Positions 16,764-41,615 of a stretch of DNA of 64,000 nt are shown in pieces. Numbering within the stretch: position 1 is the stretch's first letter; every line of letters begins with the position of its first letter. The DNA is from an uncultured Ruminococcus sp. (lineage in GTDB: Bacteria; Bacillota; Clostridia; Oscillospirales; Ruminococcaceae), in contig NZ_CAMKRR010000004.1 of NCBI RefSeq assembly GCF_946415235.1, positions 48,781 through 112,780 of the forward strand, read 5' to 3'. The notes beneath the pieces are model-generated. The model was not told the DNA's origin and did no database searches. It saw only the letters and a list, made by a program, of their open reading frames with translations. The translations under genes were made by a program, and so were the position numbers.

Positions 16764-16862
16764 GTGTATTAGAGAATAACTGTTGCAGACATACCGAGTG
16801 CCTGCAGCGGTAAGCAGGCTGTTTGGCTTGCTTCGTTTGTTTACAGGGGGTAAACATAATTA
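16764..16862 (+). promoter_or_regulatory. Structured 5' leader of the MATE gene
   Basis: gcctgc-agcggtaa-gcaggc hairpin, then TGTTTAC-AGGGG-GTAAACA holding the candidate SD; extended -10 TGATATAAT just upstream. Confidence 0.4.
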
Positions 16863-18203
16863 ATGGACAGAAAACCAATACGTAATGATTTTTTCAGGTA
16901 CATATTGGCAAATGTCACCAGCTCTGTAGGCGTATCTATCTATATACTGATAGATACGTTCTTTATTTCTAAGGGAATGGGGTCGGAAGGTCTTGCAGCA
17001 CTGAACCTCGCCCTGCCTGTGTTCAATTTTATGAACGGCTTCGGGCTTATGCTCGGAATGGGCGGAGGCAGCAAGTTCTCAATGATGTATTGCAGGACCG
17101 AGAGAGAAGAGACTGACAGAATTTTCTCAAACGCGTTCATGACAACGCTGCTCATTGCAGCCGTGTTTGAGATATCGGGGATATTTTTCTCGCGGCAGAT
17201 AACACATCTCCTCGGCGCCGACGCTGCCGTTTTTGAGATGTCACACAGCTATCTGCACAGGATACTGCTGTTTTCACCTGCTTTCCTTTTCAATAACCTG
17301 CTTGCCTGCTTTATGCGTAATGACTGCGCTCCTAAGCTTGCAATGCTGGGGATACTGAGCGGCAGCCTTGTCAATGTGGTGCTTGACTACATCTTTATTT
17401 TCAGAATGGATATGGGAATGGACGGCGCAGCACTTGCTACGTGTATCGCTCCGTTCGTAAGTATGGGGATAATGAGCATACATATCCTTACAGGCTGGAA
17501 CGCTTTCAGTCTGCGGATATCATGTCCCTCACCAAAGCTCATACGCGAGATAGTCTCACTGGGACTTCACTCCTTCTTTACGGAGATATCAGGCGGAGTT
17601 GTGATACTTGTATTCAACTTCGTAATATACCGTCTGCTCGGCAATACAGGCATTGCCGCATACGGCGTTATCGCAAATATAGGCATAGTCTTCACGGCTA
17701 TATACGTAGGTATCTCAAGCGGTGTACAGCCGCTGATGTGCAGATACCACGGCAGAAAAAACGATGCCGCCATACGCTATCTTTTAAAGCTTTCCGTAGT
17801 GACCGCACTGATATTCTCGGCAGCAGCCTACGCTCTGCTTTTCATACAGGCATCACCCGTAGTAAGACTGTTCAACAGCAGCAGCGACAAGACACTGCAG
17901 TCCATAGCAGAACATGGTCTGAGGCTGTATTTCCTGTTCATGCCGTTCATGGGCATAAACACCATACTGTCTGTGTACTTCTCATCCAACGAAAAGCCTC
18001 ACACAGCGCAGATGATATCGCTCCTGAGAGGTACTCTCCTCGTCATACCGCTTGCATTCCTTTCATACTGCCTCGGCAGCATAAACTGCATATGGCTGAC
18101 AATACCGATATCGGAGCTCATTACCGCCGCAGCAGGCGGTGCGATATTTGCTTTCGACCTGAGAAGGATCCTTTCGGAAGACTTAAAACTTGCATACAGA
18201 TAA
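16863..18203 (+). CDS. MATE family efflux transporter
   Basis: 446 aa, about 12 TM; IDTFFISKGMGSEGLAALNLALPVFNFMNGFGLMLGMGGGSKFS. Confidence 0.92.
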   Translation: MDRKPIRNDFFRYILANVTSSVGVSIYILIDTFFISKGMGSEGLAALNLALPVFNFMNGFGLMLGMGGGSKFSMMYCRTEREETDRIFSNAFMTTLLIAAVFEISGIFFSRQITHLLGADAAVFEMSHSYLHRILLFSPAFLFNNLLACFMRNDCAPKLAMLGILSGSLVNVVLDYIFIFRMDMGMDGAALATCIAPFVSMGIMSIHILTGWNAFSLRISCPSPKLIREIVSLGLHSFFTEISGGVVILVFNFVIYRLLGNTGIAAYGVIANIGIVFTAIYVGISSGVQPLMCRYHGRKNDAAIRYLLKLSVVTALIFSAAAYALLFIQASPVVRLFNSSSDKTLQSIAEHGLRLYFLFMPFMGINTILSVYFSSNEKPHTAQMISLLRGTLLVIPLAFLSYCLGSINCIWLTIPISELITAAAGGAIFAFDLRRILSEDLKLAYR

Positions 18204-36377: not shown

Positions 36378-36515
36378 CCTCTCAAACTGAGAGGTCATGG
36401 TTACACAACGCCCTCATCTTTCGGATAAAACCGCAGGAATTAGCACCTTCGACGCATTTCGGTCGGGTTGCTGCGGCTTCATCGGTCCTGTTACCTCCGC
36501 CGCTCTTGATAAGGT
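36378..36515 (-). promoter_or_regulatory. SAM-I (S-box) riboswitch with terminator
   Basis: Minus strand CTTATCAAGAGCGGCGGAGGTAACAGGACCGATGAAGCCGCAGCAACC...AAGGTGCTAATTCC...GAAAGATGAG, then CCTCTCAGTTTGAGAGGTTTTTTT. Confidence 0.95.
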
Positions 36516-36524
36516 TATGTGTGT

Positions 36525-36553
36525 ATTATACACCATTGTCGGAAATTTGTCAA
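36525..36553 (-). promoter_or_regulatory. Consensus sigma-A promoter of the riboswitch-metK unit
   Basis: Minus strand TTGACA-AATTTCCGACAATGGTG(17)-TATAAT. Confidence 0.85.
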
Positions 36554-36587
36554 TAGTATATTTCCCATATGCAACACTTTTTTTGAC

Positions 36588-36720
36588 ACAAAACAAATGA
36601 GCCTCCTTTTCAGGAAGCTCATCTGCCATGATATAGGGATTATTGGGGATTTAATAATTTAATGTTGGGGTAAACATTAAACTACCATGAAAATCAGCCT
36701 CGGGATATTCTCCCTCAGCA
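36588..36720 (-). ncRNA. Candidate sRNA with two CCCC-containing hairpin loops
   Basis: Minus strand: extended -10 TGATATAAT upstream; hairpins TTTAATGTT-TACCCC-AACATTAAA and ATTATT-AAATCCCC-AATAAT; terminator-like ATGAGCTTCC-TGAAAA-GGAGGCTCAT-TTGTTTTG; separate metK promoter follows. Confidence 0.55.
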
Positions 36721-36731
36721 TTTATATTATA

Positions 36732-36756
36732 TCACACATTTATGTATTTTGTGTGA
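36732..36756. promoter_or_regulatory. Perfect inverted repeat at the candidate sRNA promoter
   Basis: TCACACA-tttatgtattt-TGTGTGA abutting ATTATA (minus TATAAT). Confidence 0.5.
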
Positions 36757-36943
36757 AAAAGCCGAACGAGCAGTAGAGAAAATATTCAACATATTCGAAG
36801 TCCGATTGTCTATATTTTACAAGTGATATTATTATAATCCACCGGTTTTAAACTTGTAGTATTTTTTTGTAATCGGATTAACGCCAGTTATTTACATTTT
36901 CCGACTTTACAGTACCCTATTTCAGGTTCACAGGAACGCCGAA

Positions 36944-38422
36944 TTATTGCTGCTTTTTCACATCACTGATCTTGAACCAGAAGGTAGAGCCCTTGCCGAT
37001 AGTGCTCCTTACTCCGTAGTCGTAGTTATGCAGTTTGAGCACAGCCTTTACGATGGAAAGGCCGAGACCTGTACCTACTACCTCGCGCTTGTGATTTTCC
37101 GAGCGGTAATACTTGTCAAAGATAAGCTTTATCTTATCCTTGTCAATACCGTCGCCCGTATCCTCGACTTCCACAAGAACTCCGTCGTCTGTATTGATCT
37201 GACGCACGAATACCTGCTTATCGTCACCTGTGTAGTTTATTGCGTTATTGATAAGGTTGTATATTACCTGTTCTATCTTGACGGTATCGCAGTATACTGT
37301 CCTCTCCTCGTCGGGAGTAAAATGTATGGTATAGCCGTTCTTCTCGGAAAGTCCCTTGAAGCGTTCGATTATCTCGCTCAGCTTGCCGCGTATGCCGAAT
37401 TCGGACGGAGTAAGCTTCTGCCTTCCGCTCTCAAGCTTGGACAGGTCGAGCATATCGTTTACGAGCAGTGCAAGACGATCGGTCTCACTGATGATTATTT
37501 CAAGATGCTCGTTCCTCTTAACGGGATTATCCCCCGAAAGATCGCGTATCATTTCCGCATAGGCTTTCAGCATGGTCAGCGGGGTCCTCAGGTCGTGGGA
37601 AACATTTGCTATGAGGTCTCTCTGCATCATATCCACCTTTGAAAGCTCTTTTTCCGCATAGGTCAGCGTGTCCGCCAGCTTTTTCGCCTCGAGATAGCCT
37701 CGTCCGTCAAATTTCGTCGTAAAGTCGCCCTTCGCAAGTCTTTCGGCAGACTTTGTTATCCTGTCGATAGGCGCAGAGATGCGGTTTGAAAGGTAAAGCG
37801 ATATAATGAAAGCAAAAGCGATAAGTATCACTGTTATCGTCATGAGCTGACGCTTTATGACATCTACCGTCGCACCCACGGGAACAAGTCCGAGGTTGAT
37901 GAGCAGATAGCCGTCGGGATAAGCTCCGTCTCCCAGTGTACAGCCGTAGATCAGTATATTCTGAAATCTGTAGCTTATCACATGGCCCTCCGCACTGTCT
38001 ATACTGTCAGCAAGGATGCGTCTTTTGTCGTTGGGATTATGGATAAGGCAGTCATTAAAAATATGTTTTTTTGCCACTTCCCTGCTGTACTTGTCAACCA
38101 CAAGCACGCACAGATCCTCTTTCACAGCCGTCTCTTCCACTATATCCGCAAGCTTTTTACTCTGCTCGTCATCAAGGACTATTTCCATTGCGTTGCTGTA
38201 TTTTTCAGACCTGTCGATCTCGTTGTATACGTCTGCTATAGCTATCATGCTTTTTGCGGCAGAACGCACTCTCATGTCCTCATAAAATCTTTCGAGGAAG
38301 AATATAAGGAATATCCACAGCAGGGCGAATACCACCACAGTAAACATTATAAAGTACAGCCATATCTTGACTTTAAGGGATATCTTGCTGTTGGCATGTC
38401 TGAAATGTTTAATCGGCTTCAA
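36944..38422 (-). CDS. Sensor histidine kinase (HAMP, HisKA, HATPase_c)
   Basis: DLIANVSHDLRTPLTMLKAYAEMIRDLSG; NLINNAINYT; GTGLGLSIVKAVLKLHNYDYGVRSTIGKGSTFWF. Confidence 0.95.
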   Translation of the reverse strand: MKPIKHFRHANSKISLKVKIWLYFIMFTVVVFALLWIFLIFFLERFYEDMRVRSAAKSMIAIADVYNEIDRSEKYSNAMEIVLDDEQSKKLADIVEETAVKEDLCVLVVDKYSREVAKKHIFNDCLIHNPNDKRRILADSIDSAEGHVISYRFQNILIYGCTLGDGAYPDGYLLINLGLVPVGATVDVIKRQLMTITVILIAFAFIISLYLSNRISAPIDRITKSAERLAKGDFTTKFDGRGYLEAKKLADTLTYAEKELSKVDMMQRDLIANVSHDLRTPLTMLKAYAEMIRDLSGDNPVKRNEHLEIIISETDRLALLVNDMLDLSKLESGRQKLTPSEFGIRGKLSEIIERFKGLSEKNGYTIHFTPDEERTVYCDTVKIEQVIYNLINNAINYTGDDKQVFVRQINTDDGVLVEVEDTGDGIDKDKIKLIFDKYYRSENHKREVVGTGLGLSIVKAVLKLHNYDYGVRSTIGKGSTFWFKISDVKKQQ

Positions 38423-39086
38423 ATTTATATCCCATTCCTCTCAGCGTAACGATGAATTTTCGATACTCTCCGAGACTGTTTCTCAGCATTTTAATATGTG
38501 TATCCACCGTTCTGTCATCACCGAAAAAGTCGTAGCCCCATACTTCTTCAAGGAGCTTGTCCCTTGAAAGAGCGATATTCTTGTTTTTAACGAGATAAAA
38601 CAGCAGATCGTACTCCTTTGGGGTCATTGAAGCCTTTACGCCGTTGACATAGACCTCTCGTCCCGCTATATCAACTTCAAGGCCCTCAAATGCGAATTTG
38701 TCGGGAGCGACTGTCTCTTCCTGACGGGTATTTCTTTTCATTACGACCTTGACTCTTGCCATAAGCTCCTTTGGTGAAAAGGGCTTTACAACGTAATCGT
38801 CGATGCCGATCTCAAAGCCGAAGAGCTTGTCATACTCCTCGCCCCTTGCAGAAAGCATGATGACGGGGATATTCTTAGTCTTATGTATCTCCTTGCAGGC
38901 CGAATATCCGTCGAGTCTTGGCATCATTACGTCCATTATGATTAGGTCGTAATCGTTATCGTGGCAGAGGTTCACCGCTTCCATGCCGTTTTCGGCTTCA
39001 GTTACCTCATAGCCCTCGAATTCGGCATATTCACGCACTACCTTTCTGATATTCATTTCGTCGTCAACAACAAGAATATGTGCCAT
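38409..39086 (-). CDS. OmpR/PhoB-family response regulator
   Basis: HILVVDDEMNIRKVVREYAEFEGYEV; LIIMDVMMPRLDG; winged-helix C-terminus. Confidence 0.95.
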   Translation of the reverse strand: MAHILVVDDEMNIRKVVREYAEFEGYEVTEAENGMEAVNLCHDNDYDLIIMDVMMPRLDGYSACKEIHKTKNIPVIMLSARGEEYDKLFGFEIGIDDYVVKPFSPKELMARVKVVMKRNTRQEETVAPDKFAFEGLEVDIAGREVYVNGVKASMTPKEYDLLFYLVKNKNIALSRDKLLEEVWGYDFFGDDRTVDTHIKMLRNSLGEYRKFIVTLRGMGYKFEAD

Positions 39087-39332
39087 ATATTACCTCCATA
39101 GTGTTGTATTTTAAGTATCCGATGTCAAAAACATACAAATACACAGCTTCTGCTGTTCTCCGTTTATATTATAACATTATATTTGACAAAAGTGTATATT
39201 ACGTGAAATTTTCTTGTAAATTTCCGTCAATTTTATCAAATTTGTTAGAGGAGTTAAATTTATAATTGACTTTTTCGGTCATTATTGCTATAATGTATAT
39301 GGGTAATCATGTTTGAAGGGAGGCAGTGCCTG

Positions 39333-41615
39333 ATGAACAACGGATCTGATAATACCAAAAACGGAAAGAAAAATAAAGTAAAAAGAGTATCAAGCAGCTT
39401 TAACCCACTTGCAGCAGCCGTAATAATCGTAGTCGCAAGCGCACTTGTGATAGGCTACTGCATTTTAAACCCCGAGTATGCCAAATCAACTCTTATCATA
39501 TATATTTGCACAATGGTCTGTGCAACTCTGATCCTTGCCATATCGGGCTGGATTTATAAAAACAGAAAGACCTCGCTGGACGTCAGCGATGTAATAAAGA
39601 TAACAGAGAACCTCAACACCGAAATGATAATCTGGTCGGATGATTTCTCTTTCGTTTATATAAACAGGAAGCTCCGCGAGCTTCTCGGCATAAGTGCCGA
39701 CTATTCGGACAAAAAGGAAGGCGTATGGGCTGCCTTCGGCATAAATACCCCAGATTCAACCGCACTGGAAAGGATAGTGGGAAGCAACTCCTACGAATCC
39801 ACTTTCCGCAATCCCAGCGGCTCTCTAATCTCCATAGCATGGAGCACATCAAAGGTAAAGAAATACAAGAAACGCGATGTTTATCTCAGCACAGGCTTCA
39901 ACCTCACAGAGCTCAAGAAAATGAGGCTGAACCTTGCAAATGCCAACGACTTCTTCCACTCTTCAATGGAGCTTGCCGAGATAGGCCTTATAATGAGCAC
40001 CGACAGAAGAGTTTTCCGTGCATCTCCCGAGCTTTCACATATGCTGGGACTTAAAAACAGCTCGATAAACGTAAACGAGCTGCGCTCCATAATCCACCCC
40101 AACGACAGGCTCCAGTTTGACGGAGCTATCCGCAGCAAGGACATAACAGCCTCCAAAAATCTCGAAATGAGGCTCAAGAGCGCCGACGGCTCTTACCGCT
40201 GGTACTCCTTCCGCCTTAAGTCCATAATAGGTACGGGAAATACCGCTCCCCTCTTCGGCGGAGCCGTTATCGACGTTACCCAGAAGCACGAAAAGGACAT
40301 CCTTATCGAGCGCCTCGCCTACATGGACGATGTTACGGAGATCGCAAACCGCAACAAGCTGGTTGTTACAGGTCAGGAAATATACGACTCATGTAAGATA
40401 CTGGACTATTCGTTCTGGATAATAGTCCTCGATATCGACCGCTTCCACATCATCAACGACACCTGCGGCTATACCAACGGCAACTTCGTGCTCAAGAACT
40501 TTGCCCATATCCTGTATAAATATGTAACTCCCGGCGGTCTCGCAGCAAGAATAAGCGGCGATAACTTCGCACTTCTCCTCAGAGACTACGGCGACGAGGA
40601 AATGCCAACAAGAACAGTAAAGGCTATACAGGAGGACTTCACAAGGCTTGCCGTTGACGATTTTGCTTCAATAAGCCTTACCTGCTCGGCAGGCTACTCA
40701 AAAATGCCCGAGGACGGCGGTTCGTTCCTTGAAGTCATGGAGCACGCCGAATTCGCACTTAAATCCAACGCAGGCATTCAGGGCAGCATTTGCGGCTATG
40801 AGCCGAGTATGCACGATTCCATCATAGGAAACACCGAGCTTGAAAAGGCTCTTGCACTTGCTATAGACAATAACGAATTACAGCTCTACTATCAGCCGAA
40901 GATCGACCTTTCATCAGGAAAGATCATGGGCGTTGAAGCTCTTATCCGCTGGATAAAGCCCGACGGAACGGTAATTACTCCCGATTCATTCGTGCCTATT
41001 GCCGAGAGCTCGCACCTCATCGGCAGAATAAGCGAATTCGTACTCAACGAGGGCTGCCGTCAGAACAAGCTGTGGCAGAAAATGGGCTATTCGCCTATAG
41101 TTATGTCCATAAACTTCGCCTCCTCGGATTTCTATCAGACAGACCTTAAAGAAAAGGTATTTGAAGCTCTTGCGCGTTCGGCTCTCGATCCCCAGTGGCT
41201 CGAGGTAGAGCTCACCGAAAGCCTCGCCCTCAGCGATATCGACTTCGCAGTGGATCAGATGAACAAGATACGCGATCTCGGTGTAAAGCTTGCAATGGAC
41301 GACTTTGGAAAGGGCTATTCGTCACTGAGCTACCTGCAGGTCCTTCCTATCACACTTCTTAAACTGGACCGCTCCTTCATAACCGATATCGAGCACGACA
41401 ATATCGCCTACGAGATAGTTTCGGCAGTAATACGCATCGCCAAATCAAAGAAGATAGAAACTATTGCAGAGGGTATCGAGAACAATGTTCAGGAATCCAT
41501 ACTGCGCATGGCAGGATGTGATTACGGTCAGGGCTACCTCTACGGTCAGCCTATGCCACCCGAGAAGATACTCGATTTCTTCGAGCAGAACGAAAAGCGC
41601 GATATGAAGCGATAA
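39333..41615 (+). CDS. PAS-GGDEF(degenerate)-EAL membrane protein, predicted c-di-GMP phosphodiesterase
   Basis: Two TM; GGDEF position reads SGDNF; EAL residues present: GVEALIRW, VELTES, MDDFGKGYSS, LKLDRSFI, IAEGIEN, QGYLYGQP. Confidence 0.88.
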   Translation: MNNGSDNTKNGKKNKVKRVSSSFNPLAAAVIIVVASALVIGYCILNPEYAKSTLIIYICTMVCATLILAISGWIYKNRKTSLDVSDVIKITENLNTEMIIWSDDFSFVYINRKLRELLGISADYSDKKEGVWAAFGINTPDSTALERIVGSNSYESTFRNPSGSLISIAWSTSKVKKYKKRDVYLSTGFNLTELKKMRLNLANANDFFHSSMELAEIGLIMSTDRRVFRASPELSHMLGLKNSSINVNELRSIIHPNDRLQFDGAIRSKDITASKNLEMRLKSADGSYRWYSFRLKSIIGTGNTAPLFGGAVIDVTQKHEKDILIERLAYMDDVTEIANRNKLVVTGQEIYDSCKILDYSFWIIVLDIDRFHIINDTCGYTNGNFVLKNFAHILYKYVTPGGLAARISGDNFALLLRDYGDEEMPTRTVKAIQEDFTRLAVDDFASISLTCSAGYSKMPEDGGSFLEVMEHAEFALKSNAGIQGSICGYEPSMHDSIIGNTELEKALALAIDNNELQLYYQPKIDLSSGKIMGVEALIRWIKPDGTVITPDSFVPIAESSHLIGRISEFVLNEGCRQNKLWQKMGYSPIVMSINFASSDFYQTDLKEKVFEALARSALDPQWLEVELTESLALSDIDFAVDQMNKIRDLGVKLAMDDFGKGYSSLSYLQVLPITLLKLDRSFITDIEHDNIAYEIVSAVIRIAKSKKIETIAEGIENNVQESILRMAGCDYGQGYLYGQPMPPEKILDFFEQNEKRDMKR

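Follow-up and report, generated by a model that had tools for sequence, protein, structure and literature searches.

A conserved structured RNA beside a sensor kinase gene in Ruminococcus, a candidate output of the adjacent two-component system

Among the described Firmicute RNAs, three stand closest in design to the one presented here. In RoxS/RsaE, which is driven by ResDE or SrrAB, several regions rich in C can pair with Shine-Dalgarno sequences (PMC4409812). The csRNAs of Streptococcus are outputs of CiaRH, with OmpR-type direct repeats 11 bp apart and regions that pair with ribosome-binding sites (PMC8186281), and LhrC is a multicopy Listeria RNA that is induced through LisRK and acts on mRNAs (PMC4132741).

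The DNA analysed here, hereafter the window, is a stretch of 64,000 nucleotides from an uncultured Ruminococcus sp. (assembly GCF_946415235.1, contig NZ_CAMKRR010000004.1, positions 48,781 to 112,780). Between a histidine kinase gene and the metK riboswitch it carries a unit that an earlier note had proposed to be a trans-acting small RNA (sRNA) of the RsaE/RoxS type, with twin hairpins presenting CCCC loops. Inspection of the sequence found the strings on which that proposal was built to be where they had been placed, namely the -10 element, the C-loop hairpin, the second CCCC and the terminator-like stem with its U-rich tail; all features are collected in Table 1. That this is a conserved structured RNA is, from comparison of sequences, close to certain, while its structure, its boundaries, its linkage to the kinase gene and the promoter box that it shares are well supported on the same basis. 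It is probably a trans-acting regulatory RNA that serves as a main output of the adjacent two-component system and would pair with G-rich ribosome-binding sites, probably silencing the mRNAs of other genes. The earlier note had missed the 27-nt invariant core, the constancy of the kinase linkage and the repeats shared with the promoter of the regulator gene.

Table 1. Positions in the window of the sRNA, its predicted elements and the neighbouring features.
Feature	Position	Strand	Remark
Predicted sRNA, about 130 nt	36588..36720	minus	start inferred from the -10 element
-10 element TATAAT, preceded by TGTGA	36726..36731	minus	9 nt past the second repeat
Direct repeats TTTCACA-CAAA-ATACATA, predicted response-regulator box at the -35 position	36741..36758	minus	
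Hairpin 1, GGGA...UCCC	36702..36714	minus	sequence variable between species, pairing largely retained
Hairpin 2 with UACCCC loop	36655..36684	minus	covariation and stem survey
Second CCCC	36645..36648	minus	inside the invariant core
Invariant core AUCCCCAAUAAUCCCUAUAUCAUGGCA, 27 nt, mostly unpaired	36624..36650	minus	identical in 30/30 same-genus loci
Terminator-like hairpin, then U-rich tail	36592..36627	minus	covariation, helix 3
Sensor histidine kinase gene, immediately 5' of the sRNA	36944..38422	minus	Pfam HAMP, HisKA, HATPase_c
OmpR/PhoB-type response-regulator gene	38409..39086	minus	Pfam Response_reg and Trans_reg_C
Second occurrence of the repeat box with -10, ahead of the response-regulator gene; autoregulation predicted	39176..39208	minus	
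metK promoter TTGACA-17-TATAAT	36525..36553	minus	12/12 consensus matches, after the sRNA terminator
metK SAM riboswitch, separate neighbouring unit	36411..36515	minus	Rfam RF00162, 90 bits

The likeness to RoxS/RsaE lies in the possession of several C-rich regions, here the UACCCC loop and the UCCCC of the core, and in the link to a two-component system; both C-rich elements, which would be available for pairing, are conserved, and the resemblance in design to the RsaE/RoxS type is upheld. The RNA differs in having no match to the Rfam model of that family, and the putative ResD site of RoxS/RsaE is a conserved 8-nt element near -65, whereas here tandem repeats lie over the -35 region. RoxS/RsaE is controlled by ResD/SrrA; the adjacent regulator here is of the OmpR/PhoB type, its best NCBIfam models being PhoB, RpaB and YycF, every one of them below cut-off. 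The RoxS/RsaE gene is not known to lie beside its regulator gene, and we know of no 27-nt invariant core in that family. With the csRNAs the Ruminococcus RNA shares direct repeats of 11-bp period around the -35 position of its promoter, where binding is here predicted, regions that could pair with ribosome-binding sites, and the predicted character of a strong sRNA output of one two-component system, present in more than one copy in some genomes. The csRNA box, however, is TTTAAG-N5-TTTAAG against TTTCACA-N4-TTACACA here, which does not fit the CiaR motif, and the Ruminococcus sRNA is unrelated in sequence, usually single-copy and adjoins a kinase gene. LhrC is likewise an sRNA tied to a two-component system, and it exposes pyrimidine-rich single strands; the Ruminococcus RNA differs from it in the absence of an Rfam match, in having one copy in most genomes and in the sequence of its core. 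A search of Rfam for RsaE or any other family, named earlier as a check, came back empty: no family matched the sRNA at the gathering score, either in the window or, SAM riboswitch aside, in the loci of 20 relatives, and a permissive scan returned chance matches only. By the tests made, this is a new sRNA family and a member of none of the three; that it works like them we think quite probable.

The predicted RNA folds with an energy of -49.1 kcal/mol, against -28.4 kcal/mol for dinucleotide shuffles (z -6.0). Covariation among related Ruminococcus, another check that had been named, bears the structure out: in an alignment of 28 sequences, from which the two loci without the UACCCC hairpin (L026 and L028) were left out, 97.1% of cells at paired positions are paired, and both sides have changed with pairing kept in 17 of 31 pairs, against 6.0 expected, with 0 of 500 shuffles as good. 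Hairpin 1 has 93.5% of cells paired and both-side changes in 3 of 4 pairs, the UACCCC hairpin 97.5% and 7 of 12, and the terminator 97.8% and 7 of 15. Among the copies listed from a wider scan together with the earlier loci, the stem beneath the CCCC loop reaches at least 7 bp in 111 of the 127 copies with enough sequence, on 63 different 5' arms, and the loop is mostly UACCCC; flank-shuffled controls gave such a stem in only 6 of 120. One of the proposed twin hairpins is thereby upheld and the other is not. The AUUAUU...AAUAAU hairpin has 0 compensatory changes among the relatives' loci compared, its AAUAAU 3' side being invariant and its AUUAUU 5' side varying in several relatives so as to break pairs, nor does this hairpin form in the minimum-energy fold; hence we read the second CCCC as part of a largely unpaired invariant segment and not as a hairpin loop.

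A DNA search of 60 related genomes located the sRNA in 31 of 36 genomes of the same genus, the R. flavefaciens group (one of the 31, G009, gave weak partial matches only), and in 0 of 24 from other families. The flanks of the unit have diverged while AUCCCCAAUAAUCCCUAUAUCAUGGCA stays identical in every one of the 30 loci read. A covariance model built from the genus loci matched in 33 of 297 genomes, representing 15 of 126 genera of the family, although the two weakest model loci read (L079 and L080) look spurious; the 27-mer core, with at most 3 mismatches, was confined to the window's own genome in a search of 291 genomes of the class. In other genera the copies retain CCCCAAUAAUCC(C)UAUAUCAU, or something close to it, together with the terminator, and show an ACCCC hairpin with a different stem. 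Public genomes, when scanned, gave at least 119 stretches, from Ruminococcus flavefaciens, other Ruminococcus, Oscillospiraceae and further Clostridia, and the unique copies from the scan and the earlier loci combined number at least 129. Because the scan copies were selected by the core pattern, conservation of the core was judged without them, on the 60-genome search, the 30 genus loci and the other-genus loci. There is usually one copy per genome, and one genus has a diverged second copy in tandem. At L062, L063 and L064 the tandem second copy has its own box-like promoter and an altered core (AUCCCUAUAAUCCCUAUAUCAU or shorter). Two variants, L026 (G004) and L028 (G008), have lost the UACCCC hairpin yet retain core and terminator, which suggests that the core is the essential part.

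Against our preferred reading stand the variants that lack the UACCCC hairpin, the majority of regulator-bearing genomes in which the model finds no match, and the failure of a recurrent long antisense target to emerge. The core itself also counts against it, for 27 invariant nucleotides are more than a usual seed, and it is this excess that makes a protein-binding role the main rival. The UACCCC loops and the core might recruit or sequester an RNA-binding protein, with a KH domain for example, as CsrB/RsmZ do with GGA loops. CsrB/RsmZ sponge RNAs repeat a constant loop on variable stems, and the Ruminococcus RNA is like them in carrying a constant loop on freely changing stems; distant relatives have an extra hairpin with ACCCC and a further CCCC within the loop of the terminator, and their RNAs hold up to about four C-rich elements each; and every base of the core is conserved, A and U positions included. 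The loop is, however, UACCCC and not GGA, most copies in the genus of the window have one hairpin loop and the core, which is few for a sponge, and RoxS/RsaE, csRNA and LhrC, the Firmicute RNAs that share this design, act through pairing. We consider a protein-binding role unlikely, and rate just as low its more specific form, in which core and UACCCC loops are the docking site of a dedicated C-rich-RNA-binding protein that is titrated or recruited by the sensor-driven RNA.

That the RNA is an output of the adjacent two-component system, as we prefer, is suggested by its promoter. The repeats follow the consensus TTTCACA-N4-TTACACA, with an 11-bp period upstream of the -10 element, and in some relatives four of them stand in phase; repeats at the -35 position are the usual binding place of OmpR/PhoB-type activators. 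Among the matches listed, the box scores 10-14 of 14 in 123 of 124 copies, compared with 8-11 in shuffles, and the spacer between box and -10 element is 9 nt in 67 of 124. The pattern TTTCACANNNNTTACACAN9TATAAT, with at most 3 mismatches, has only two matches in the window's genome, the promoters of the sRNA and of the adjacent regulator gene (the reversed control pattern has one), and most relatives, other genera included, also carry the box ahead of the regulator gene. Since its promoter shares the predicted binding sites of the regulator gene itself, the sRNA looks like the RNA output of the sensor, and control by the adjacent regulator is likely. The box resembles Pho boxes; a phosphate-regulon reading is unsupported, as PstS-family searches gave no match in the window's genome and none above cut-off in eight genomes.

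The same histidine kinase gene lies directly 5' of the sRNA, on the same strand, in 30 of 30 genus loci; of the unique copies that could be tested among the matches listed in the wider scan, 97 of 121 have the kinase there too. Such constancy, together with the fact that the window shows no called terminator separating the two, would be expected if the RNA were derived by processing from the 3' UTR or terminator region of the regulator-kinase operon mRNA, possibly trans-regulatory, and not a separate gene. We judge this improbable in view of the conserved promoter box and -10 element that stand between kinase and RNA, and of the copies in other genera that have no kinase nearby and still carry the box.

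The gene downstream, by contrast, varies, and metK lies within about 1.6 kb at no more than roughly half of the 30 loci. Position just upstream of metK on the same strand could mark the RNA as part of the metK leader, extending the SAM riboswitch in the upstream direction. This is very improbable: RF00162 spans 36411-36515 only, the separate metK promoter that had been pointed out earlier does follow the sRNA terminator and precede the riboswitch (36553-36525, matching the consensus at 12 of 12 positions), and the RNA is unchanged in the loci that have no metK within that distance. Because the kinase linkage is constant while the next gene varies, we regard the sRNA as independent of the riboswitch, and the claim that it forms a discrete conserved unit of about 130 nt, with its own box and terminator, holds. 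A short protein-coding gene is scarcely credible, for although the AUGGCA of the core supplies the window with an ATG in frame (71-aa ORF, 36414-36629), this ORF runs through the riboswitch, other genera have AUAACC or AUAGCA in place of that ATG, and indels and compensatory stem changes dominate.

Orthologues of the regulator are present in 184 of 297 genomes, compared with the 33 that match the covariance model, so that most genomes with the regulator have no match. In four other genera without a believable model match, C-rich stretches lie 3' of the same kinase (L249 at position 630, L251 at 701, L253 at 621 and L262 at 1093); their sequences differ from the sRNA, they are box-driven or at least C-rich, and two show clear CCCC-loop hairpins. 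As box-driven C-rich RNAs follow the kinase in other genera, the linkage of sensor and RNA may be wider than the sRNA sequence family. The extracytoplasmic region of the kinase has a conserved C-L-[IL]-H motif (NDCLIH, in relatives GDCLIHG or GNNCLLHG), a possible sensing site, which is missing from one distant homologue. Divergent from the response-regulator gene, at 39309-41615 on the plus strand, is a gene for a 768-aa protein that by eye resembles a GGDEF/EAL cyclic-di-GMP enzyme.

On the preferred reading, the sensor kinase would activate the OmpR/PhoB-type regulator, which would bind the TTTCACA-N4-TTACACA repeats that replace a -35 box and so switch on both its own operon and the sRNA. 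An RNA of about 130 nt, ending at its own terminator, would then expose two C-rich stretches in single-stranded form, one in the UACCCC loop and one in the invariant UCCCCAAUAAUCCC segment, and these would pair with G-rich ribosome-binding sites of mRNAs, blocking translation or altering mRNA stability. Such pairing is expected by analogy with RoxS/RsaE, the csRNAs and LhrC; we infer transcription, regulator binding, the direction of regulation, base-pairing and targets alike.

Outside the sRNA, 12-nt complements of the core are about as frequent as the control count, with no recurrent partner and none in the window's genome, and a long antisense target was therefore rejected, the core complements being not clearly above control. 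Ribosome-binding sites of the form GGGGTAA...ATG gave 28 matches in the window's genome, against 15 for the control, and the recurrent genes among such matches are a GH48 cellulase gene and a gldG-like gene. The latter was discounted, its GGGGGTAA being the coding end and stop codon of the preceding gene (RRWNRG-stop). The ribosome-binding site of the GH48 gene, GAGAGGGG, is intergenic, is found in 29 of 29 readable genes (L405-L434) and differs from the GGAGG at the regulator gene. It is a weak target lead, because conservation is usual for any ribosome-binding site and the bases that follow GGGG vary, and the rank of its duplex is circular, since the site was selected for GGGGTAA. Divergent from the GH48 gene is an ABC-transporter operon (ATPase, permease and GldG-like protein), found in most genomes of the genus (e.g. 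G031:C11:928195-928227, L437 and L405-L434), and the response-regulator box before it scores at least 12 in 23 of 27 cases, against 1 of 27 when shuffled. With the GH48 site, this suggests that the two-component system may act on the cellulase locus. At 16862-18200 on the plus strand of the window, a predicted start region contains GGGGGUAAAC, which is almost perfectly complementary to the UUUACCCC loop (duplex -16.4 kcal/mol); its start codon is uncertain.

Our search of the open-access literature turned up neither a regulatory sRNA previously described from Ruminococcus flavefaciens nor a paper on this sRNA or its sequence. Were the docking-site reading true, it would mean a Csr-like logic whose code is C-rich; this logic would be widespread among the Oscillospiraceae of gut and rumen and would have a link to the cellulase locus. 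Ruminococcus flavefaciens is a main rumen fibre degrader, and the box at the divergent ABC-transporter operon, together with the conserved GAGAGGGG, gives a lead, short of proof, toward control of its GH48 cellulase locus. With a well-bounded RNA family for which a candidate regulator can be named, the promoter box is defined and, as a lower bound, more than 120 unique copies can be compared, riboregulation under the control of a sensor becomes directly testable in Clostridia of the gut and rumen.
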